A stretch of 64,000 nucleotides of DNA from Bacillota bacterium (GTDB lineage Bacteria; Bacillota; Clostridia; Peptostreptococcales; Anaerovoracaceae): positions 1-64,000 of the forward strand of contig JALEJU010000031.1 in NCBI GenBank assembly GCA_022769485.1. The letters are read 5' to 3'. Numbering within the stretch: the first letter of the stretch is position 1; each line of letters opens with the position of its first letter. The translations under genes were made by a program, and so were the position numbers. Under the pieces are notes generated by a model, which was given only the letters and a program-made list of their open reading frames with translations, was not told the DNA's origin and made no database searches. Of the stretch, positions 6,704-39,652 are shown one piece after another.

Positions 6704-7951
6704 CTATGCAAAATCAAGAATAATAACAGCGCCTTTGGGAATTTCCATCTTTACCGCTTCCTCCAGCGGAACTCCCTGTAAATCGCTGAGCAGAACCCGA
6801 AGGACACCGGAATGAGCTACGATAATCAAATCCCGATATTTGTCATCCTCGCCGCGCAGCGCCGCCTCTCTGCTTTCTATCCGCAGAATCTTTTCCAAAC
6901 ATTTCATTACCCGGTAACGAAGGTCATAAAAATTTTCACCATCGTGTCCGATTTTAAATCGAAGCAGATCCTCTCCGCGAGCTTTATACTCCTCCGGATA
7001 TTTTTCCTGAATCTCCCGAATAAAATGTCCGTCCCAATCCCCCAGATTCATTTCCCGAAGTCCGGCTTCCGGCCGAAGTTCCGGAATCTGATTCCGCAGC
7101 ATAATTACCGTGTTCCCGGCAATTTCCGCTGTGTCTTTTGACCGCTTTAAATCGCTGCAATAGATATGTTCAAATTTAGCTTCATGCCGTGTCAAAAATA
7201 ACCCCACAGCCTGAGCCTGCTCCTGCCCTTCTTCATTTAATGGGACATCCGTCTGGCCGATAAATACTTTTTCCGCATGCTGCTCCGTCTGACCGTGGCG
7301 AATCAAAAAGAGCCTCCCCCTGAAATCCAGGGGTTCCTTCGGTTTCAGCATATTCAGAACGTCCTGGTATCCTGCCGGCGTATCCATATCCAAAACCACG
7401 CCTTCCTCCCCCGTTTCCAACAGCCTCACCTTATCCGCATAGCGGTTCATTACAGCTTTCAAGCCGCCGTCCCCGTGATAATTCAAAATTTCCTCTCCGT
7501 ATTGAGAAGGAATCAGTATGGGATGTCCTTTCTTCCCACGATAACAGGGAATCAAAAAACAATCAGGATGTACCATATGTTCCGCTGCCATACGCCGAAT
7601 TGCACTGACAGGAACCAACGGACAGTCCACCAGCATCAACAGATATGCGCTTGATTGATTCTCCCGGGCTGTCCGAATACCTGCCTGTATTGATGTAAAC
7701 ATGCCTTCGGAAAAATTTTCGTTATAGGCCTCCCGAACTCCCTGATTCTCCAAAATTCCCCGCAGCGCCTCCCGCTTATAACCGGTAACAGCTATAATTT
7801 CCTGAAATCCGGCTTCCTTCGCCGTGTTCAAAACCCGTTCCAAAGCGGTTATTTCTCCTACCGGGAGCAGCGGTTTAAAATCCCCCATCCGGGAAGAATA
7901 GCCCGCCGTTAAAACAAAAGCGGTTAAATTCAGTAAATTACCTTGTTCCAT
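6704..7951 (-). CDS. MobA-like nucleotidyltransferase fused to histidine phosphatase
   Basis: A 415-residue two-domain protein. Residues 8-200 are a MobA/MocA-like NTP transferase with LTAGYSSRMGDFKPLLPVG near the N-terminus (nucleotide binding) and LLMLVDCPLV (metal-binding Asp). In molybdenum hydroxylase systems such enzymes make the cytidine dinucleotide form of molybdopterin. Residues 213-415 are a histidine phosphatase (phosphoglycerate-mutase superfamily) with LIRHGQTEQH (His219 phospho-acceptor) and a second catalytic His in VAHSGVLR. It resembles the NTP transferase family named after Desulfovibrio DVU_1551. It is the last gene of the operon and overlaps xdhC by 14 bases. Cofactor nucleotidyl transfer is the likely role; the phosphatase substrate is unknown. 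Confidence 0.85.
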   Translation of the reverse strand: MEQGNLLNLTAFVLTAGYSSRMGDFKPLLPVGEITALERVLNTAKEAGFQEIIAVTGYKREALRGILENQGVREAYNENFSEGMFTSIQAGIRTARENQSSAYLLMLVDCPLVPVSAIRRMAAEHMVHPDCFLIPCYRGKKGHPILIPSQYGEEILNYHGDGGLKAVMNRYADKVRLLETGEEGVVLDMDTPAGYQDVLNMLKPKEPLDFRGRLFLIRHGQTEQHAEKVFIGQTDVPLNEEGQEQAQAVGLFLTRHEAKFEHIYCSDLKRSKDTAEIAGNTVIMLRNQIPELRPEAGLREMNLGDWDGHFIREIQEKYPEEYKARGEDLLRFKIGHDGENFYDLRYRVMKCLEKILRIESREAALRGEDDKYRDLIIVAHSGVLRVLLSDLQGVPLEEAVKMEIPKGAVIILDFA

Positions 7952-8759
7952 GACCGGCTCTCACCTGAATCATTTCCGCTGCAATGCTGATAGCAATTTC
8001 CTCGGGAGTTTCCGAATAAATTTCCAGCCCGATCGGGGAATAAATCTTATCCAGCGTTTTCTTCGAAACGCCTTCTGACGCCAGCTGATCCAGATTGGTT
8101 TTGACCTTTCCACGGCTGCCGATCATACCGATATATGCGTTTTCTTTCGTTACAGCCTGCCGCAAAACTGTTAAATCCGCCGCATGCCCTCTGGTAACGA
8201 TGATAATATAACTGTCCTGATCCGTCTCGATTCCTTTAAAAGCGTCTTCGAAATCCCCTACGATGACTTCTTTGGCTTCCGGATACCGCTCCCGGTTCGC
8301 AAACTGCGCCCTGTCATCCATTACAACTGTTTCAAATCCGATATAACGAAGGATCGGCTCCAAAGCCTGAGCTACATGACCTGCGCCGAAAATATAAGCG
8401 GTTGTCCGCTGCCCAAAATCCTCTGTGAAATTTGCGGGATTGGATGCGTCAATATAATCAATAGCAATATCCGCATCCCCGCCGCAGCGCATGTCGATTC
8501 CGCCCTGTTCCTCTTTTGTTAATCGGAAATGATAAATTTGACTTTTTTTCGTTTTAAAAGTCTCGCGACAGATTCGCTCCGTTTCTGCTTCCAGTTTGCC
8601 GCCTCCTACCGTTCCGATTCTGTCTCCGTTTGCCTTCATCAACAAATACGCGCCCTTTTTCCGAGGCGTAGAACCATGGGTATCGACTACCTTTGCCATT
8701 ACAAAATCTTCTCCGCGCTCCAAAAGCTCTCTTGCCACATAAATCACTCTATCTGCCAT
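7938..8759 (-). CDS. XdhC-family molybdenum hydroxylase maturation factor
   Basis: A 273-residue protein of the XdhC/CoxI family, chaperones that bind molybdenum cofactor, help add the terminal sulfido ligand and insert the cofactor into xanthine dehydrogenase-type enzymes. The N-terminal XdhC domain carries DTHGSTPRKKGA and GTVGGGKLEAET. The C-terminal Rossmann domain has YIFGAGHVA, VTRGHAADL and YIGMIGSRGKV. The start at 8759 is preceded by AAAGGA. It lies between the adenylating enzyme and the nucleotidyltransferase fusion and supports the view that the operon matures the aldehyde oxidoreductase at 15009-17870. Confidence 0.92.
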   Translation of the reverse strand: MADRVIYVARELLERGEDFVMAKVVDTHGSTPRKKGAYLLMKANGDRIGTVGGGKLEAETERICRETFKTKKSQIYHFRLTKEEQGGIDMRCGGDADIAIDYIDASNPANFTEDFGQRTTAYIFGAGHVAQALEPILRYIGFETVVMDDRAQFANRERYPEAKEVIVGDFEDAFKGIETDQDSYIIIVTRGHAADLTVLRQAVTKENAYIGMIGSRGKVKTNLDQLASEGVSKKTLDKIYSPIGLEIYSETPEEIAISIAAEMIQVRAGHGTR

Positions 8760-8777: not shown

Positions 8778-9890
8778 CTATTTTTCCCGTGGGCCTACCC
8801 GTTCCAAGCGTTTTAAGATACAGCCGCAGGGACACGGCTCCGTCAAAAAACGACTCCGGTCTCCCGTGCGGTACCGAATAAAAGGCATCCCTTTCCGGGT
8901 TAAAGTAGTAAATACGATCTCCCCGTATTCTCCGTCTTTTACTAATTCCCCGGTTTCGGGATTTATAATCTCAAAAAATAAATCCGCTTCCCGATAATGG
9001 TAGCCATCCAGGACATAACAGCTGACAGCGCCTCCAAGCCCCATTTCCGTCATGCCGTAATGCTCAAATATTTTGCATTCCCACGCGGTTTCAATGGCGT
9101 TCCGCGCCTCCGCGGAAACATAATCCGCCGACAGCAAAACTGTACGCATAGAAGCTTTAACTTTTTCCAAACGTTCAACAATCAAAGGATCCTGCGCCGC
9201 CGCTCTTTTCTCTGTCCAAAGCTGCGCTAAAGCCGCCACCTGCCCGGGAATCCCCAGAATAAAAGTCACATCCTTCTCCGCCATCAGCTTCAGAAGTTCT
9301 TCCAATTCCTGTTTAAAAGTTTCTCCCCGGCCGTTTCCTTTATTTCCCCGTTCCAGTTCTCGCATGCCCGGAAGGCCATACGGTATTGTAAATACATCCA
9401 TCCGTTCCGCACCGATGCGGAAAAGATCGCCTACCGACCCCGGCCGCCTGCACGGAAGCAGAATCAAAGCCCGATCCGTATCGTCCGCCATATTATGCAG
9501 CCCAATCCAAAAATAAGCCGTAGTTAACTCCTGATCTTCTTTTGTAAAATATACACGCTTCGGCTTTCCCTGAGTACCGCTGGTTTCCAGCGTTACAATT
9601 CGACTGATCTCACCGGGACGAACGCAAAGAAGCCCCTCCTCCTCCGCCAGCAAATCTGCCGGAGAAGTAAAGGGGAGCTTCTGCATATCTTTAGTTGACA
9701 TAATATCCCGTTCCGGATCCACGGAAGCAAACAGTCTCCCGTAAAACGTACTGTTTTTTTTCGCCATTGCTACGGTCTCCCGCAGTTTTTTCACCTGATA
9801 CGCTTCCAGAGTTTCTCTTGTCAAAGGAGCATCGGCAGGAAGTCCGATTTTCTCTTTTGTCCAGTCGCTGATGAATTCTTTTTTAATCAT
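8778..9890 (-). CDS. PaaK-like adenylate-forming enzyme without C-terminal lid
   Basis: A 370-residue protein similar to phenylacetate-CoA ligases and to the family named after DVU_1553. The adenylation core is intact: SGTQGKPK (104-111, ATP phosphate loop), HYGMTEMGLGG and YRTGDRSR. It then stops at CPCGC..RVGPREK, the position of the hinge, so the lid domain of about 60-100 residues that PaaK enzymes swing in for thioester formation is absent, and no downstream open frame encodes it. It may therefore only adenylate an acid, or hand the acyl group to another protein. It overlaps the preceding C_GCAxxG_C_C gene by 8 bases. Substrate unknown. Confidence 0.82.
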   Translation of the reverse strand: MIKKEFISDWTKEKIGLPADAPLTRETLEAYQVKKLRETVAMAKKNSTFYGRLFASVDPERDIMSTKDMQKLPFTSPADLLAEEEGLLCVRPGEISRIVTLETSGTQGKPKRVYFTKEDQELTTAYFWIGLHNMADDTDRALILLPCRRPGSVGDLFRIGAERMDVFTIPYGLPGMRELERGNKGNGRGETFKQELEELLKLMAEKDVTFILGIPGQVAALAQLWTEKRAAAQDPLIVERLEKVKASMRTVLLSADYVSAEARNAIETAWECKIFEHYGMTEMGLGGAVSCYVLDGYHYREADLFFEIINPETGELVKDGEYGEIVFTTLTRKGMPFIRYRTGDRSRFLTEPCPCGCILKRLERVGPREK

Positions 9891-10278
9891 CTTCCCAACC
9901 TAACATTTCCTGTAACTTTTTATAAGTTGCATCCATCATCGCAGGACATTTTTCCGCCTTGTTCAAAGGGTTCCCTTCCAGCAATTCATCACAGTCCAAG
10001 CTGCCGAACTCGTCCTCAAACCAGTCAAGCAGTTCTTCGTTCTGACCCTGACCCGCTTCTTCCGGATTCCGCATATAAAGCAGGCACGCTGCCGCCGTCA
10101 AAATTCCGCAGACCTTTCCCCTGTGCAGGCCGCCGCACAGCCCTGCCATAGCAGCGATCAGATCCGGATTTTTTTCCTTACCCATGGCGTCCATTCCCAT
10201 CTGCATGATGATCTGACTGCAGCAATTTCCCTGCAATTTTAAATCAATAATCTTTTTATTAATATCCATCATTCCCAT
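9883..10278 (-). CDS. C_GCAxxG_C_C-family cysteine-rich protein
   Basis: A 131-residue protein of the C_GCAxxG_C_C family, probably a metal or iron-sulfur/redox carrier. Visible cysteines are Cys19-Cys20 (GNCCSQI), Cys48 and Cys57 (GLCGGLHRGKVCGILTAAACL), Cys65, and two later ones (LDCDELL, KCPAMM). The helical GLCGG..G..CG pattern resembles the family named after DVU_1555. It sits in the middle of the molybdenum operon, between the methyltransferase and the adenylating enzyme. The ATG at 10278 follows AGGCGG at good spacing; a second ATG nine bases on is possible. Confidence 0.82.
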   Translation of the reverse strand: MGMMDINKKIIDLKLQGNCCSQIIMQMGMDAMGKEKNPDLIAAMAGLCGGLHRGKVCGILTAAACLLYMRNPEEAGQGQNEELLDWFEDEFGSLDCDELLEGNPLNKAEKCPAMMDATYKKLQEMLGWEDD

Positions 10279-10323: not shown

Positions 10324-11064
10324 CTACTCCGGCTTAACAGCTACTAAGAGGAAATATCCCGGATTTTTCTGTTTCATAGACTTGCAGAATTGACAAGCTT
10401 TTTCCCCTTCGCCTTCCGATTCAAAGAATTTTTCAAGGGAACCATAATCCATTATGGTCTGCGCTATGAAGTCACGAAGCGCTTTGCTTTTATCATACCA
10501 TTTTACATTCTTATACCCTATATCTTCCAAGTTTGTCTGTAAAACATCCATAACAAAAGCGCCGTCCAGACAATATTCCGAAGGATACTGCACTAATCCG
10601 GATTCGCAGTCTCCTTCCTGTTTTGGCTTATTCATAGCCGCATGAGCAGTCTCTATCATATTCATTACATCTTCGGGCTTGGGGTCTTTTGTAAACAAGT
10701 CGGTGATAATCAGCTTCCCGCCTTTTTTCAAAACGCACCAGGCCTCGTGAAGCGCTTCCGTCTGCATATTGATTAAAGAAAGCGTACATTCCATCAAAAC
10801 GCCGTCAAAAGTAAATGAAGAGAACATATCTAAAAATTCTCCGTCCCCTTCCCGAATATCCAGTTTCGGGTTTCTCTGTTTTCCGGCTTTTATCAAATCC
10901 GGAGAGAGATCAATTCCACACGCATCAAATCCATTGTTGTTCAAGTGCTCTACCGTCTGACCTTTTCCGCATCCGATATCCAAAAGTTTCGCGCCTTTTT
11001 TAAATCCGCAAAGCTTTACGGCCTCGTCTGTCAGCGTAAATTCACCCGGTCTAAATACTGCCAT
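10324..11064 (-). CDS. SAM-dependent methyltransferase of the molybdenum cassette (TrsM/DVU_1556-like)
   Basis: A 246-residue class I methyltransferase: LLDIGCGKGQTVEHL (motif I), IDLSPDLI, VLMECTLSLI and LKKGGKLIITDLF. A CQFC pair lies near the C-terminus (CQFCKSMKQ), which is unusual for simple methyltransferases. It resembles the family named after DVU_1556. The start is taken at 11064 (MAVFRPGEF), giving a 19-base gap to the radical SAM gene; the longer frame to 11130 would overlap that gene by 47 bases and lacks a good site. The substrate is unknown; pairing with a radical SAM enzyme suggests that the two modify the same molecule. Confidence 0.82.
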   Translation of the reverse strand: MAVFRPGEFTLTDEAVKLCGFKKGAKLLDIGCGKGQTVEHLNNNGFDACGIDLSPDLIKAGKQRNPKLDIREGDGEFLDMFSSFTFDGVLMECTLSLINMQTEALHEAWCVLKKGGKLIITDLFTKDPKPEDVMNMIETAHAAMNKPKQEGDCESGLVQYPSEYCLDGAFVMDVLQTNLEDIGYKNVKWYDKSKALRDFIAQTIMDYGSLEKFFESEGEGEKACQFCKSMKQKNPGYFLLVAVKPE

Positions 11065-11083
11065 GTTCCTATCATCCTTTCTT

Positions 11084-12451
11084 TTACCGTCTGTGCCATT
11101 GATATGCGCAGAAAGGCACCAGACGCTCATCGGGGCTGTATACCTGAACCCGGCACCGTTTCAGCCGCTCCGCGTCCAGATTTGTCTCATCTTGAAATGC
11201 CATTCCCGACAGAGTAAACGTATTTCTTCTCATATATGCAATCATCTGATCAAAATCCGGAATTTCATTCTCTTTTTTTTCGCCGGAACAGCAGCAAGAA
11301 GATTTTTCTTTCTCCGGTTCTTCCGCTATCCAGTTGTTTAAAACGAAATCCCGATCTTTTTTAATAATAGACAATGGATCCTGATCACCGCAGCAGCTGA
11401 CACCGCTCTGCTTTTCGCTGCTCCCCAAAAGGCTCTTTACACTGCCGTCCTTCAGCAGCAGATAACTGCCGCTGAAACAGCATAGAGGATGCCCGGTAGA
11501 AATCGGACAAAAATCCTCATAACGGAATAACCCATTCGTCTGCTTTACAATTTCATGCATAACCGCAAACATGGTAACCCGTTCTTCCTTCCGGCGCGTT
11601 TCATCATAATCATGTCGCCCGATAAAACTCACCGGCTGAAAGTGAATTCCCTTTACTACGCCTATATAACGGAACATAAACCGGATCATATTCCCAATGT
11701 TGTCCATGTTCAAATGCTTTACAAGCGTAGGCACTAAAGTGACCGGCAGACCTGCTTTCCTGCAGTTTTCAATGGCCAGTTTCTTCACTTCAAAAAGGGC
11801 TTCTCCCCGAAGTTCCATGTAGATATCGTCTTTTGTTCCGTCGAACTGCATGAAAATCACGGAAGCTCCCGCTTCTTTCAGTTTTTGGGCATACCCCTCT
11901 TCCAAAGCCAATCTGCGTCCGTTTGTGTTAATCTGTATGTAAGAAAAACCTTTTTCCCGTCCCATACGGATTAATTCCGGCAGATCGTCCCTGACTGTAG
12001 GTTCTCCGCCGGAAAGCTGAATATTAAAAGGACGTTCCTCCCCCAGCTCGATCAGACGATCGTACCAGCGTTCAATTTCCTCTTTCGAAGGGTCTCCTTC
12101 CATGGTTTTCCCCGCATCCGCAAAACAGCACGGACAATGCTGATTACAGCGCTGGGTAATATCCAAAATCACACAGCAGGCAGTCTGCAGATGTTTATCA
12201 CACAGGCCGCAATGCAGAGGACATTCCCCTTCTTTTCCTTCGGTCATAGCTTCCTTCATTGGAATGTTTATAACCTTTTTTTCAGTCCAGCGGGTGAAAT
12301 CCTTCACCCGCTCGGCTGCCAACGTTTCGATCAATCCATGCTCCGGGCATTCGCTTATAAAATGCGCTTCGCCTTTTTCTTCTACATAATAAGCTTTAAT
12401 AGGTTTACCGCATTTCGGACAAACGCTCTGCACGGTGCTTAACTTTTTCAT
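11084..12451 (-). CDS. cysteine-rich radical SAM protein of the molybdenum cassette (TrsS-like)
   Basis: A 455-residue radical SAM enzyme. An N-terminal zinc-ribbon-like part (Cys11, Cys14, Cys35; Cys77, Cys81, Cys84) precedes the core cluster motif CNQHCPCC (Cys102, 106, 109), followed by LSGGEPTVRDDL and INTNGRRL, all typical of the SAM core. A C-terminal cysteine run (SSCCCSGEK) is notable. It resembles the TrsS family, of which some members are selenoproteins; here all positions are ordinary codons. It overlaps the small CxxC gene by 4 bases (ATGA). The reaction is unknown. The reliable inference is only that it serves the adjacent aldehyde oxidoreductase. Confidence 0.85.
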   Translation of the reverse strand: MKKLSTVQSVCPKCGKPIKAYYVEEKGEAHFISECPEHGLIETLAAERVKDFTRWTEKKVINIPMKEAMTEGKEGECPLHCGLCDKHLQTACCVILDITQRCNQHCPCCFADAGKTMEGDPSKEEIERWYDRLIELGEERPFNIQLSGGEPTVRDDLPELIRMGREKGFSYIQINTNGRRLALEEGYAQKLKEAGASVIFMQFDGTKDDIYMELRGEALFEVKKLAIENCRKAGLPVTLVPTLVKHLNMDNIGNMIRFMFRYIGVVKGIHFQPVSFIGRHDYDETRRKEERVTMFAVMHEIVKQTNGLFRYEDFCPISTGHPLCCFSGSYLLLKDGSVKSLLGSSEKQSGVSCCGDQDPLSIIKKDRDFVLNNWIAEEPEKEKSSCCCSGEKKENEIPDFDQMIAYMRRNTFTLSGMAFQDETNLDAERLKRCRVQVYSPDERLVPFCAYQWHRR

Positions 12452-12642
12452 TTTTCTTCCAGGGTTCCTTCCAGCTGTTTCATCTTACTTAAAACCAGAT
12501 CTTCCGGAATATAAACTTGTCCGCATTCAGGACAGCGAGGAACCTTATGCTGGATCGACGTTCCCAAGTACGTGAATTTTGTTTCCGCCGGAACCATCTC
12601 CACTTTGCATCTATCGCAAATCAAAGTCTGTTTTTCTTCCAT
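12448..12642 (-). CDS. small two-CxxC redox/zinc protein (DVU_1557-like)
   Basis: A 64-residue protein with two cysteine pairs, Cys9-x-x-Cys12 (CDRC) and Cys37-x-x-Cys40 (CPEC), as in a rubredoxin-like or zinc-ribbon knuckle. It resembles the family named after DVU_1557. Its 5' end overlaps the 3' end of the dicluster protein gene by 32 bases and its stop overlaps the radical SAM start by 4 bases, so the three are translationally coupled. It could carry electrons or a metal to the radical SAM enzyme; this is inference. Confidence 0.8.
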   Translation of the reverse strand: MEEKQTLICDRCKVEMVPAETKFTYLGTSIQHKVPRCPECGQVYIPEDLVLSKMKQLEGTLEEK

Positions 12643-14899
12643 TCCAAATCATCTCCAGCTCAATTTCAATTCTATGGTTATAAACGTTTAAGATTTCAAA
12701 TTCATTTTCGCCAATGGGACGATAATCTACCCAATAGGTCGTATATCCCAACTGGCGGAAACAGGTATAGCTGTCCGTATCGGGATGATAAACTCTGCGC
12801 TTTAATTGCTCGGCCAATTCCAGAACTTTGCAGATATCATCTTCTATAATGTGAAGCTTATCCATTTTTTCCGTCAATTCAGGGCTGATTTTCAACTTCA
12901 TCTTCTGCTCCGGTTTTTCTTCCATTTTTTCTCCCCAAATTTTTTTCAGCAAATTTTCTTTTAACCGTTCTCTATTTCTTCTCCGTTCAGTTAAGGAAGG
13001 TTTTGAACAGCCGTCATCATTGATGTCGAAAAACAAATCCAGAATGTGGAGCGCATCTTTCCCCTTGCTTCTGAAATTATCCCTGCAGTTAATACAGTAT
13101 GCAATATAAGGATGTTCTGAAGCGTTTACACGACTTTCGATAACGAAATCCACATACTCCGGATTGGCAACTGCACCCTGCCCGCCGTAGCCGCAGCATC
13201 CGTGCTGTTCATATTTAGGCAGGTCTTCCCATTTCGCTCCGGCTTTATCTGCAAGTTCTCTCACGGTTTTCTTGATGTTTTCATCACCTCTGACAGCGCA
13301 GGGGTCAAAAATACAATGCATTTCATGGGGAGAAGCTCCATGGGGCTCAATTCCCCATTGGTTCATCACCTCATAAAGCATAACAGTTTCGATTTCCGGG
13401 AGAGCCTCTTTCAATTGGTTTCTGCAAGTGGGGCAAGCCAGTATAAGCTTTGGTTTTCCTAAATCCTCCCAGTCCTTTCTTAACAGTTCGGTCTCATCTT
13501 TATGCAGCTGTTCATCTCCCGACCACTTTGCAGGGATATTGCAGCAACGAAGCAGCAACGCTGTATCAGGCTTTTTGGAAAGCAACCAGTTATAAGACTT
13601 CTCTACATAACGCGGATCGGTAGCTCCCAGCTGACATCCCGGAAAAAATGCGTATTCACAGGATTTTTCTCCCGGAGCCATTTTCTTTATGGCTGCAAAG
13701 CTCCCGTTGGCATGATCCATATCCTCCAGGAAATATTGATGATACCCGTAAGGCATTTTCCCGATTCGATGCAATTCTGTCCTTGCATGCATGATCATGT
13801 CGCACAGTTCAATTTTAGAAGGACAACTGCTTCCCTGCAGCTGCCCGCACTGAGAACAAGTATTGATCAATTTCTTAGCCGGAGCCGCATGAATAATCGA
13901 ATCAGAAGGCGATACCGTAGCCGTTACTTCGTCTCTCAACTTCAGCGGCCATTTATTGTAAAACGCGACCAGATCACAGTCCGTTCTGCAGGCGTCGCAC
14001 TGACAGCGAATGCAGCGAGCCGTCTCCTCTTTTACTTCTTCGTCAGTGTAAATTCCATTATCGGAAGGAGTCGGCCCTTTTGTCTCTTTCAGGCGATTGG
14101 GATTCGGAACCACTTTCGTTTCCATTACTCCTTTGGGATATTCCAATCTTCCTACTTTAATGAACACCTCCATAGCCCATGCCATGTCCAGGCCGTCAGC
14201 CATAGCCTGCACCGGGTCTTTGCCTGTCAGCATACCGCCTGCAAAAACCGCGGTTTCGCCTTCCATGCGGCAATGCCCCTCCGGCTGATTCAGCGTACCG
14301 AAATCGTTGCCGCCTTTCCCGGTAGCAACATAAATTGCGTCGAAATGTTCATTCTCCAATTCTTTTATATCTTTGATCTCTGTATTGAGTTTCAGAGTAT
14401 AATTTTCATATTTAAATTGTCTCTCGATATCGGTTGTAAAAACCTCTTCGGGAACCATATCCCGAACAACTCCTCCGATTCGATCGCTCTTTTCATAAAC
14501 GATAACCTGGCATTTTTTAGACGCTGTGCGCAGTGCACAGGAAAGACCGCTCATGCCCGCTCCGATAATGCCGATTTTCCAATCCTTAGCGGGTACATTA
14601 TAATCCGTAGGATCTTTTCTTTTTGCCTTAGCAACACAGGTTTTTTCCAGTAAATTTACTTGAACAGGTTCATCAACGCTGTTTCTTGCACAGCAGGCAG
14701 TACAGTACTGCGGACAGAGCGCAGCTACAATATCAGGAAACACGACTGCATTCCGAAACGTTTTATACGCAGTATTATAAGTGCCTCTTCCCATCTTTTC
14801 TATAAAATCCAAAATATCCACATGAAACGGACATTCTGTCGTACAATGGGGTTTTTCCCACTGACGGCATTTTTCAAATTGATTATAGTAGTATTCCAT
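12611..14899 (-). CDS. FAD/dicluster-binding oxidoreductase of the aldehyde oxidoreductase system
   Basis: A 762-residue multidomain protein. The N-terminus (cysteines at 11, 19, 23, 62, 66, 69, 88) resembles the GltD/NfnB Fe-S domain. A dinucleotide fold follows with GIIGAGMSGLS at 110-120 and YEKSDRIGGV. Then comes a ferredoxin-like dicluster segment (CIRCQCDAC..C and CSQCGQLQGSSCP), and a heterodisulfide-reductase-like region (FFPGCQLG, CPTC, HGCCGYGGQG) that could hold another cluster. The last 100 residues are of unknown type. It probably passes electrons between the hydroxylase's 2Fe-2S clusters and a soluble carrier. Start supported by AAGGAG. It is the first gene after the hydroxylase, behind a strong hairpin. 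Confidence 0.85.
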   Translation of the reverse strand: MEYYYNQFEKCRQWEKPHCTTECPFHVDILDFIEKMGRGTYNTAYKTFRNAVVFPDIVAALCPQYCTACCARNSVDEPVQVNLLEKTCVAKAKRKDPTDYNVPAKDWKIGIIGAGMSGLSCALRTASKKCQVIVYEKSDRIGGVVRDMVPEEVFTTDIERQFKYENYTLKLNTEIKDIKELENEHFDAIYVATGKGGNDFGTLNQPEGHCRMEGETAVFAGGMLTGKDPVQAMADGLDMAWAMEVFIKVGRLEYPKGVMETKVVPNPNRLKETKGPTPSDNGIYTDEEVKEETARCIRCQCDACRTDCDLVAFYNKWPLKLRDEVTATVSPSDSIIHAAPAKKLINTCSQCGQLQGSSCPSKIELCDMIMHARTELHRIGKMPYGYHQYFLEDMDHANGSFAAIKKMAPGEKSCEYAFFPGCQLGATDPRYVEKSYNWLLSKKPDTALLLRCCNIPAKWSGDEQLHKDETELLRKDWEDLGKPKLILACPTCRNQLKEALPEIETVMLYEVMNQWGIEPHGASPHEMHCIFDPCAVRGDENIKKTVRELADKAGAKWEDLPKYEQHGCCGYGGQGAVANPEYVDFVIESRVNASEHPYIAYCINCRDNFRSKGKDALHILDLFFDINDDGCSKPSLTERRRNRERLKENLLKKIWGEKMEEKPEQKMKLKISPELTEKMDKLHIIEDDICKVLELAEQLKRRVYHPDTDSYTCFRQLGYTTYWVDYRPIGENEFEILNVYNHRIEIELEMIWNGRKTDFDLR

Positions 14900-17946: not shown

Positions 17947-17980
17947 CAAAAAGCCTATCCCTTTTTGGAAGGAATAGGCT
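17947..17980 (-). terminator. riboswitch expression-platform terminator
   Basis: On the minus strand the stem AGCCTATTCC / GGGATAGGCT (plus-strand 17971-17980 and 17952-17961) is followed directly by T5 (17948-17952). It lies between the riboswitch aptamer and the hydroxylase start codon, so ligand binding would decide termination against read-through. Confidence 0.85.
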
Positions 17981-17983
17981 CAG

Positions 17984-18105
17984 AACACGCGCTACACATC
18001 TTTTGCCGCTTCTCCTTTCCAATACGGGAGGCCCGTCCGTTTCCAAACAGACCCACGGTCTCAATTTCATAGCGCAACACGCCACAGAAAGAAAGACTCG
18101 GAGAA
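17984..18105 (-). ncRNA. Moco-type (molybdenum/tungsten cofactor) riboswitch
   Basis: Read on the minus strand, the leader contains GGGCCTCCCGTATTGGAAAG followed by GAGAAGCGGC. This closely resembles the GCCTCCCGTAT..TGGAAAGG core of the E. coli moaA Moco RNA as I remember it. A closing stem GCGCTATG / TGTAGCGC brackets hairpins GACC-GTG-GGTC and GTCTGTT-TGGA-AACGGAC. The terminator at 17947-17980 follows immediately, and the first gene is a molybdenum enzyme, so the biology agrees. Such RNAs sense molybdenum or tungsten cofactor. An Rfam MOCO_RNA_motif scan would confirm it and show whether it is the Moco or Tuco subtype. Confidence 0.82.
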
Positions 18106-18127
18106 AAATATTTAATTTTCTGTAACT

Positions 18128-18164
18128 TGATAACAGTTTATCAGGGTTGCGCCTGCCCTGTCAA
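18128..18164 (-). promoter_or_regulatory. promoter of the molybdenum operon with overlapping palindromes
   Basis: On the minus strand TTGACA (18159-18164), an 18-base spacer and TAAACT (18135-18140). The spacer contains CAGGG..CCCTG, and TGATAA-N4-TTATCA (18128-18143) overlaps the -10 box and predicted start site, which is a plausible repressor site. The transcript would begin about 20 bases before the riboswitch region. Confidence 0.65.
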
Positions 18165-37485: not shown

Positions 37486-37887
37486 CTAAATGGAATCCAG
37501 CCCGTCCAATGCTGTTTTAATCTCCTCTCTCATCTGTGCCAGCGCTTTATCCAATTCTTCCGGACATAGCTGTCCTTCCGCCGACTGTTGAAAAATAATG
37601 TCAATCGTTTCCGCTGCCTGCTGCAAAGCTTCTTCCATTGCGCCGAATTTTTTCGCCAGTCCTAATTTTTTTTCGTACCCTTCCAGCTTCGCTCCCGCGC
37701 GTTTTACAGCTTCATGCACGCCCTGGCGACTCATTCCCAGTTCCTGCCCGACTTCCGCCAGGCTGTAATTATCTTCGTAATACAACCGGAACATCTCCCG
37801 CTGCTTTTCCGGGAGCAGTTCACCGTAAACATCATAGAGAATATTTAAGGCGCTGATTTCCTGAATCTTTTCAAATTCCATTTTCAT
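37486..37887 (-). CDS. ylxM: YlxM/p13-like helix-turn-helix SRP-associated protein
   Basis: A 133-residue protein with a sigma-region-4-like HTH (about 25-65; FRLYYEDNYSLAEVGQELGM, SRQGVHEAVKRA), the hallmark of the UPF0122/YlxM family, which binds and modulates SRP in streptococci. It is longer than the usual 105-115 residues because of an acidic C-terminal helix. The start at 37887 is preceded by AGGGGG. Its promoter carries a striking palindrome. Confidence 0.88.
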   Translation of the reverse strand: MKMEFEKIQEISALNILYDVYGELLPEKQREMFRLYYEDNYSLAEVGQELGMSRQGVHEAVKRAGAKLEGYEKKLGLAKKFGAMEEALQQAAETIDIIFQQSAEGQLCPEELDKALAQMREEIKTALDGLDSI

Positions 37888-37906
37888 CAACACCCCCTAA
37901 TGAATA

Positions 37907-37937
37907 ACAGCATACCACGCCCCCGGTATGCTGTCAA
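37907..37937 (-). promoter_or_regulatory. ylxM-ffh promoter overlaid by a perfect palindrome
   Basis: On the minus strand TTGACA (37932-37937), a 17-base spacer and TATGCT (37909-37914). A perfect inverted repeat ACAGCATACC-N8-GGTATGCTGT (37907-37916 and 37925-37934) covers the -10 and part of the -35, which is typical of a repressor operator. On the plus strand the same hairpin is followed by CAAG and T7 and would work as a terminator, although no plus-strand gene leads into it. Confidence 0.65.
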
Positions 37938-38054
37938 GTTTTTTTCTTTACAGTTCGTTCGTTTTCAAGAATCTTATAGAGTCTTTCCGATTCCTCGAAA
38001 CCGTCTTTGGAGAATGCTGCTTGCGGCAGCAAATTTCCACCTGTAAAGCATTTA

Positions 38055-38624
38055 TTATCCCGCTTGTTTGCTATTCCGCTTGTTTACCATGCCGCTCAGG
38101 CGTTTTCCAAGCAAGCCCGCAAGCAAAATTGAAATCGCATCTTTCAAAATGTACGGCAAAGAGGCAATGCAGAAGGACTGCAAAAGAGAATTCCCGGACA
38201 GGAAATAGAATTGCAGCACGCCTAAACCGTGACAAAGCATAAGCCCAACCCCGCACAGCAGAATTGCAGCGCCCCTGTTTTGTTTTCCATCCGCCCTTTT
38301 AAAGCGAAGAGAGAGGCCGCAAAAAAAAGCCAAAAGGAAAAAACCCCACAAAAACCCGCCGGTCAAACCTAAAAGTACGCCAGGGCCTCCTTTGAAATTA
38401 GCAAATACAGGAATCCCTATAACGCCGAGCAGAAGATATACGCCTATGGCTAAAATGCTCTTTTTTTCTCCGAGAACAAAGCCGCATAAAGCAATGGCAA
38501 ATGTCTGAAGGGTAATGGGAACTCCTGTGGGAAACGGAATAGCCAGCTGGGAGCAGACTACAATCAAAGAAACCAGAACACCGGTCTGCACCAGTGTTAA
38601 AACAGGGATCACACCTTTTTTCAT
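38055..38624 (-). CDS. bioY: biotin transporter substrate-binding protein BioY
   Basis: A 189-residue ECF-type S component with six hydrophobic helices; ITLQTFAIALCGFVLGEKK and GVPITLQ..GGPGVLLGLTGGFLWGF are typical. BioY binds biotin and works alone or with a shared ECF ATPase module. The ATG overlaps the birA stop by 4 bases (ATGA). Sensing (BirA) and uptake of biotin are thus coupled; no biotin synthesis genes are visible here. Confidence 0.93.
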   Translation of the reverse strand: MKKGVIPVLTLVQTGVLVSLIVVCSQLAIPFPTGVPITLQTFAIALCGFVLGEKKSILAIGVYLLLGVIGIPVFANFKGGPGVLLGLTGGFLWGFFLLAFFCGLSLRFKRADGKQNRGAAILLCGVGLMLCHGLGVLQFYFLSGNSLLQSFCIASLPYILKDAISILLAGLLGKRLSGMVNKRNSKQAG

Positions 38625-39652
38625 TTTTTATTTCCTTCCTGATGAAGAGTAACTTCCCCGGCACACAAGGCTTTTACACCCCCGTCCGCTAAACGAACCA
38701 GCAGTCGGCACTCTTCATCGATACCTAAAACCACAGCTGTTTCGTACAAATCCACTTCCGATCCGGTTGCCTCTCTTTTTTGCACAGCCGCTGCTCCGGT
38801 GCTTAAAATTTTAACGGTTTTTCCATCTAAAAAGGAGCGCTGTCTGTAAGTTTCCATAAAAGTTTTTTCTTCCAGATGATCATAGTAAGAAAAAAAACGG
38901 TCGATAATAACGGCGGCAAGATGATTGCGGACATCGGGCGGCGCCGTTTCGTCCTCGAAAACGTAGCCTATCTTTCCCTCCAGTTCGTCCGGGATTCCGC
39001 TTTCCGGCAGCTTTACATTTACGCCGATACCTAAAACGGCGTATTCCAGCCCGCCCCCTTCCAGATCGAATCCTGCTTCTGTAAGAATGCCGCAGATTTT
39101 CCTGCCTCTGCAATATACATCGTTCACCCACTTGATCTCTGCTTTCACGCCGCTGACCTTTTCAACCGCTTCCGAAACGGCTGCGGCAGCAGCAGCGGTG
39201 ATAGAAAGCGCCTCCTGTGCACTGCAGCGCGGCCGAAGCAGAATGCTCATATAAAGCCCGCTTCCCGCAGAAGAATAAAACGACCTTCCGAACCTTCCCC
39301 GCCCCCTGCTCTGTTCTTCCGCAAGAATGACAAGGCCTTCAGGTTCTCCTTCTGCAGCCAGATTCTTCCCAAGATCATTTGTGGAGCTGAGGGTTTTACA
39401 AATCCGAAATTGAATTCCCTCCCGATGCAGATATTTTAAAATTGCAGGCACGGACAGGATATCACTTTCTCCGGACAAGCAATAACCCCGGTTATTAATC
39501 CCTTCGATTTCATATCCTTCTTCCTGCAGCGACTTCACCGCTTTCCATACAGCGGTTCTGCTCACGTTAAGACGAGAAGCCAGCTCTTCTCCCGATAAGT
39601 AAACACCGCGGTTTTTTTCAAATTCGGCCAGTACGCATTCTCTTACACTCAT
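38621..39652 (-). CDS. birA: bifunctional biotin-protein ligase/biotin operon repressor
   Basis: A 343-residue protein. The N-terminal winged helix (5-65; LASRLNVSRTAVWKAVKSLQ) indicates repressor activity. The ligase domain carries RGRGRFGRSFYSSAGSG and KWVNDVY, and a C-terminal SH3-like domain follows (about 280-335). It attaches biotin to carboxylases and probably represses bioY. It starts from a consensus promoter. No obvious TTGTTAACC-type BirA operator was recognised, which leaves the regulatory role open. Confidence 0.94.
   Translation of the reverse strand: MSVRECVLAEFEKNRGVYLSGEELASRLNVSRTAVWKAVKSLQEEGYEIEGINNRGYCLSGESDILSVPAILKYLHREGIQFRICKTLSSTNDLGKNLAAEGEPEGLVILAEEQSRGRGRFGRSFYSSAGSGLYMSILLRPRCSAQEALSITAAAAAAVSEAVEKVSGVKAEIKWVNDVYCRGRKICGILTEAGFDLEGGGLEYAVLGIGVNVKLPESGIPDELEGKIGYVFEDETAPPDVRNHLAAVIIDRFFSYYDHLEEKTFMETYRQRSFLDGKTVKILSTGAAAVQKREATGSEVDLYETAVVLGIDEECRLLVRLADGGVKALCAGEVTLHQEGNKK

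Follow-up and report, generated by a model that had tools for sequence, protein, structure and literature searches.

The window, by which we mean the whole 64 kb stretch of DNA analysed here, holds a Moco-type riboswitch and a terminator ahead of a molybdoenzyme gene, and this raises the question of whether the cofactor turns the gene on or off. The first-pass annotation, made from the sequence, had proposed the riboswitch, a terminator with T5 and the enzyme, and had leaned towards an ON switch, which would make sense for an enzyme that uses the cofactor.

A P3-less Moco riboswitch heads a molybdoenzyme operon

We scanned the covariance models of Rfam 15 over the whole 64 kb, which was the check suggested by the first-pass annotation. 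The Moco RNA family RF01055 was the sole match above threshold (77.8 bits, gathering score 36, E 4e-17) and it aligned over the full model (1-135). The terminator and the molybdoenzyme were also found as proposed (Table 1). The span initially assigned to the element (17947-18105) covers the terminator but misses the 5'-most 10 nt of the RF01055 match, and everything lies on the minus strand.

In the alignment to RF01055, 15 model columns are deleted, P3 among them, while P1, P2, P4 with its GNRA loop, P5 and the conserved core are retained. CUCCGAG, the GAAA loop and CCUCCC..UUGGAAAGGAG are all present in the window RNA. The leader folds more stably than 200 of 200 dinucleotide shuffles (z -3.47). 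A promoter-like site is positioned 20 bases 5' of the RF01055 match. The terminator hairpin spans 17981-17951 with its T run at 17952-17948, and both the Shine-Dalgarno sequence GAGGAGG (17887-17881) and the ATG (17870) lie 3' of it. Judged by its sequence, the window RNA on its own adds a new member to an already known riboswitch family and is located 5' of genes for cofactor use and maturation.

The leader heads an eight-gene operon of the DVU_1551-1559 kind known in NCBIfam. Its first gene encodes an aldehyde oxidoreductase of the xanthine dehydrogenase (XDH) family (Mo-AOR), whose nearest named relatives are from Anaerovorax odorimutans and Clostridiales Family XIII MAGs. XdhC and MocA are Mo cofactor maturation proteins. 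The XdhC-like and MocA-like genes of the operon point to Mo cofactor maturation and, together with the family of the enzyme, to Mo rather than W as its metal. Because of these two genes, the leader would govern part of the cofactor handling besides the enzyme. This runs against the earlier statement that the control point is the enzyme and not cofactor synthesis, since the operon also encodes an XdhC-family insertion factor and a MocA-like cytidylyltransferase fusion. In the latter protein (6704-7951) a histidine phosphatase domain resembling alpha-ribazole phosphatase is fused to the cytidylyltransferase domain. About 20 operons homologous to this one in the family have the same arrangement of leader and operon.

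Table 1. Positions and supporting matches of the features at the window locus and of the divergent leader elsewhere in the genome
Feature	Position	Strand	Evidence
Promoter-like site TTGACA-18-TAAACT	18135..18164	-	consensus scan, consensus match only
Moco/Tuco riboswitch aptamer, P3-less (P1, P2, P4 with GAAA loop, P5)	17996..18115	-	RF01055
Antiterminator 5' half: aptamer core and P1 3' strand, UUGGAAAGGA	18013..18022	-	predicted pairing with 17965-17974 in nascent RNA
Antiterminator 3' half: terminator 5' arm and loop, UUCCUUCCAA	17965..17974	-	predicted pairing; duplex energy against shuffles
Intrinsic terminator hairpin and T5	17948..17981	-	-16.4 kcal/mol; best terminator-like site of the leader
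Molybdopterin-dependent aldehyde oxidoreductase, XDH family, 953 aa	15009..17870	-	NF045668 1146 bits (cut-off 1100); Pfam MoCoBD_1/2, Fer2, Fer2_2
Pyridine nucleotide-disulfide oxidoreductase/dicluster-binding protein	12611..14899	-	NF045663 710 bits
Radical SAM protein TrsS	11084..12451	-	NF045646 491.7 bits
DVU_1556-family methyltransferase	10324..11130	-	NF045667
DVU_1555-family C-GCAxxG-C-C protein	9883..10278	-	NF045669
DVU_1553-family AMP-dependent ligase	8778..9890	-	NF045666
XdhC-family cofactor maturation factor	7938..8759	-	best match NF045664 320 bits (cut-off 350); Pfam XdhC_C, XdhC_CoxI
MocA-like NTP transferase fused to histidine phosphatase	6704..7951	-	NF045665 197 bits (below cut-off), TIGR03310, TIGR03162; Pfam NTP_transf_3, His_Phos_1
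Variant aptamer of the same genome	C42:9183-9076 (= L170:3577-3684)	-	variant covariance model (R1) 94.7 bits; ON-type terminator

The anatomy of the leader predicts an OFF switch

The terminator begins about 40 nt past the aptamer core and its 5' arm is complementary to the core. The duplex between the two reaches -10.3 kcal/mol against -5.1 kcal/mol for shuffled sequences (p 0.015). In the nascent RNA, with the terminator 3' arm still unmade, UUCCUUCCAA pairs with UUGGAAAGGA with a probability of about 0.7-1 at most positions, and the antiterminator fold (-51.8 kcal/mol) is preferred over the fold with P1 held (-45.6 kcal/mol). Fold prediction thus has the core sequestering the terminator 5' arm in the ligand-free nascent RNA. 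When the 3' arm is present, P1 together with the terminator (-61.5 kcal/mol) outweighs the antiterminator (-58.4 kcal/mol).

Since the 5' arm pairs with the core before the 3' arm is made, a ligand-stabilised aptamer should favour termination. We predict from these folds that the window RNA is an OFF switch which is decided kinetically. The logic hangs on co-transcriptional kinetics because at full length the antiterminator is not the favoured structure when ligand is absent. The ON switch that had been suggested for the window RNA is at odds with this anatomy, on which we dropped that reading.

This leader is one of a canonical set of 103, made up of the three from this genome and 100 from relatives in the family. 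Terminators were typed by the rule that the bases immediately 5' of the U run must make one helix. The terminator was separate and downstream in 90 of the 103 leaders, our script found none in the other 13, and in none of the 103 did a terminator start within the aptamer core. Pairing between the core and the terminator 5' half was stronger than in shuffled controls for 77 of the 90 leaders (Wilcoxon 4e-14) and for 18 of 19 leaders of Mo-AOR genes (2.7e-5); the leaders share ancestry, so these p values overstate independence and are optimistic. The core scarcely paired with the terminator 3' arm (mean -0.13).

Further riboswitch copies and metal genes in the genome

The genome (1.49 Mb) has four Moco-type leaders, three canonical and one divergent, the latter before its tungsten AOR. 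The two canonical RF01055 copies beyond the window copy both lack P3. One heads the genes moaC-moaA-MOSC-TupA-like-TupB-like-ATPase-moeA-moeA/PBP, and with this moaC-moaA-MOSC-tupABC-like-moeA order cofactor synthesis does stand behind an RNA of this kind, which the first-pass annotation had set apart from the control point. The other heads the gene of a protein of 2434 residues, in which S-layer homology domains occur together with Oxidored_molyb domains. From their sequences, both copies are predicted to be OFF-type.

The tungsten-use genes associated with the P3-lacking Tuco (WCo) subclass are present, namely one tungsten AOR (PF01314, C42:6837-7886) and one TupA-like protein (136 bits, under the curated cut-off of 400). 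The genome further has one gene matching NF045668 and, elsewhere, one ModA gene, at which the genome search with RF01055 found no copy.

The surface protein (L005:2580-9884, minus strand, on C42 of the same genome) carries SLH repeats, Reg_prop propeller repeats and an Oxidored_molyb domain. Its neighbours are further Oxidored_molyb proteins, an FMN_bind protein and ApbE. Comparable giant surface proteins are found behind Moco RNAs in several relatives.

A divergent class with predicted ON architecture mostly precedes tungsten AOR genes

The leader of the genome's own tungsten AOR gave no RF01055 match in the Rfam scan, even at E 0.5. In relatives, weak RF01055 matches (about 30-43 bits) stand directly before tungsten AOR genes, some of them at 37-43 bits and others at 30-34 bits, on either side of the gathering score of 36. 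Their consensus has GC:GC in P5 instead of CC:GG (24 of 24 aligned), a GYRA loop (GNRA other than GAAA) and no receptor. The alignment of these 24 variants gives the Moco P1-P2-P4-P5 fold, with two-sided changes in 15 of 24 pairs. Its covariation score was 0.456 compared with 0.216 for shuffled alignments, well above the shuffled and slid controls.

With the variant covariance model we found 52 members of at least 66 bits in the family, while canonical RNAs scored at most 60 bits. Members also occur in other families of the order. This suggests that RF01055 largely misses the class preceding tungsten AOR genes in this bacterial order. We read 51 distinct members, and a tungsten AOR or its ferredoxin partner was downstream in 42 of the 48 decidable cases, a Mo-AOR in 3 and something else in 3. 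Given the three variant ON leaders before Mo-AOR genes (L040, L071, L210), the association of the ON variant with tungsten is not strict.

In 44 of 50 variants, compared with 0 of 103 canonical leaders, the aptamer core itself is the terminator 5' arm (GCAAAGG...CCUUUGC-U6). In the variant copy of this genome, the terminator fold is at -49.8 against -39.8 with P1 held and is thus preferred unless ligand keeps P1 in place; the P1-held fold is the MFE until the 3' arm appears. Since the core doubles as the 5' arm of its own terminator, ligand binding should turn the gene ON, and by its sequence the divergent variant is an ON architecture. The genome therefore does contain the architecture that had been suggested for the window RNA, but on the divergent aptamer before the tungsten AOR.

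Several variant loci deserve a mention. The copy at C42:9183-9076 precedes a ferredoxin subunit, the tungsten AOR and a MoeA-like gene. A tandem pair of variant aptamers stands before an AOR gene at L224 (513 and 741, plus strand). Variant RNAs with a GCGAAGG core precede Mo-AOR or other genes (L071, L040, L210, L223, L225, L226), and three of these (L223, L225, L226) have a second complementary element, GUGCGCAG/CUGCGCAC, 3' of the terminator. An RNA intermediate between the canonical and variant types, GCUUGCC..UGCGAAGG, is located upstream of a PF01314 AOR (37689-38675) at L184 (G225:C63:40605-40762, minus strand). Both classes also seem to be present in two cultured strains, Anaerovorax odorimutans DSM 5092 and Sinanaerobacter chloroacetimidivorans BAD-6.

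Proposed mechanism and alternatives

The explanation that we favour, and on the modelled folds consider probable, is an attenuation OFF switch at the window as one of four leaders, three of them canonical OFF and one variant ON. Without ligand, the core and P1 3' strand (18022-18013) would pair with 17974-17965 and the polymerase would read through. With the cofactor bound, the core would be kept in the aptamer, the terminator would form and the operon would be silenced. At the variant before the tungsten AOR, ligand binding would block the core-armed terminator and turn the gene ON. The most economical reading, which is speculative, is that a cofactor surplus, probably of the tungsten form, would shut off import, synthesis and the Mo-AOR and switch on the tungsten AOR. 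Equally speculatively, the P3-less aptamers as well as the variant would sense the tungsten cofactor. A further step, which we take only tentatively and with more doubt than confidence, is that two Moco-type subclasses in one cell distinguish the W from the Mo cofactor with opposite polarity. This would be an RNA-only exchange of metal isozymes, in which the variant turns the W-AOR ON and the P3-less RNAs turn import, synthesis and the Mo-AOR OFF.

OFF switching could also serve simple homeostasis, with all four leaders sensing the same free Mo cofactor and no W/Mo isozyme exchange. This would agree with the E. coli copy, which according to Regulski et al. (2008; PMC2408646) senses Moco and represses, with the XdhC and MocA-like maturation genes within the operon, and with a modA gene at which no RF01055 copy was found. 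Yet P3-less aptamers have been linked to tungsten use in the same paper, both a tungsten AOR and a transporter of the TupA-like kind are encoded in the genome, and the variant aptamer differs at the P5 core pair and precedes tungsten AOR genes. We consider homeostasis alone unlikely.

An ON switch at the window, where the cofactor prevents termination so that no enzyme is produced before cofactor is there to load it, is biologically reasonable for a cofactor user, and the ON architecture does occur before the tungsten AOR of this genome and before Mo-AOR genes in three related leaders. The position of the window terminator, about 40 nt past a core that its 5' arm complements, and the count of zero ON-type terminators among 103 canonical leaders make it improbable. 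That the leader attenuates passively, or that its aptamer has decayed and lost ligand control, is hardly credible given the full-length Rfam match, the intact core and an arrangement repeated before about 20 operons, even if the ligand is too unstable for routine binding tests (PMC2408646).

Relation to known systems

Regulski et al. (PMC2408646) had already described Moco RNAs before genes of cofactor users, platforms of the terminator type and RNAs without P3; they assigned the last of these to the tungsten cofactor and showed by experiment that the E. coli moa copy is an OFF element. The window RNA is like these Moco RNAs in aptamer architecture, conserved core, genomic context and, as predicted here, in the OFF polarity of the E. 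coli copy. In contrast to the latter, in which P3 is present and control is exerted at the ribosome binding site, it lacks P3, uses a terminator and leads a DVU_1551-type Mo-AOR operon. It resembles the Tuco subclass in the missing P3 and in the tungsten AOR and TupA-like transporter of its genome, but the enzyme downstream belongs to a molybdenum family, that of xanthine dehydrogenase. In this it is similar to the sulphite oxidase exceptions of Syntrophomonas wolfei, in which Mo-family enzymes are behind P3-less RNAs; for these two sulphite oxidases Regulski et al. speculated on a comparable repression (PMC2408646).

The same source noted 4 of 176 Moco RNAs with a GCAA tetraloop and no receptor as a correlate between tetraloop and receptor. 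They share the loop type and the missing receptor with the tungsten-AOR variant and may belong to it, although the main text neither sets them apart as a class nor links them to particular genes or to ON polarity. Our literature search, made at the level of article texts, found nothing on ON-type or tungsten-AOR Moco RNAs past PMC2408646 and the reviews citing it. The ON-type variant class, and its pairing with OFF copies in one genome, appears to be new. If our reading is true, the variant is an ON-type switch of the Moco family.

Lack of a stable ligand has kept discrimination between the Mo and W cofactors by Moco RNAs an open question since 2008. Two natural leaders of one genome whose outputs are predicted to be opposed offer a test with a sign, for which the ligand need not be purified. 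If the proposal holds, a cofactor surplus brought about with molybdate or tungstate would raise the output of one leader and lower that of the other, and any dependence on the metal would decide which cofactor they recognise.

Cobalamin riboswitches shut off B12-independent isozymes, which do not use the sensed cofactor. The system proposed here is alike in that a cofactor-sensing RNA would silence an alternative enzyme. It differs in that both enzymes use a pterin cofactor and the metal varies.

Observations on canonical relatives

The canonical P5 core pair is either C-G (GCCUCCC..GGAAAGG) or U-A (GCCUUCC..GAAAAGG), as seen in L046, L058, L060, L064, L090, L124 and others, and family RNAs with a clear P3 have the U-A pair. 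Co-variation of these core types with the terminator class was tried and rejected, as it held for C-G cores (-7.35 with their own and -5.8 with the other class) but not for U-A cores (-4.83 and -4.9). A statistic of P3 against gene over the 100 relatives was also dropped, as the P3 parser is unreliable wherever P2 is misplaced.

By a hand tally, a tungsten AOR is present in 12 of 15 genomes with a riboswitch-led Mo-AOR and in about 18 of 51 other Mo-AOR genomes, a difference that is suggestive yet confounded by the general link between the riboswitch and tungsten use.

Moco RNAs were also found before ABC transporter operons of the FecCD type, a B12/siderophore fold (L035, L037, L079, L129, L131 and others). 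These may be Mol-type transporters that import molybdate or tungstate. In one relative (L066:467-1939, plus strand) a Moco RNA stands directly before an aldehyde dehydrogenase of the NAD type (PF00171), whose family does without a pterin cofactor. The arrangement would fit an OFF switch on a metal-free substitute enzyme.
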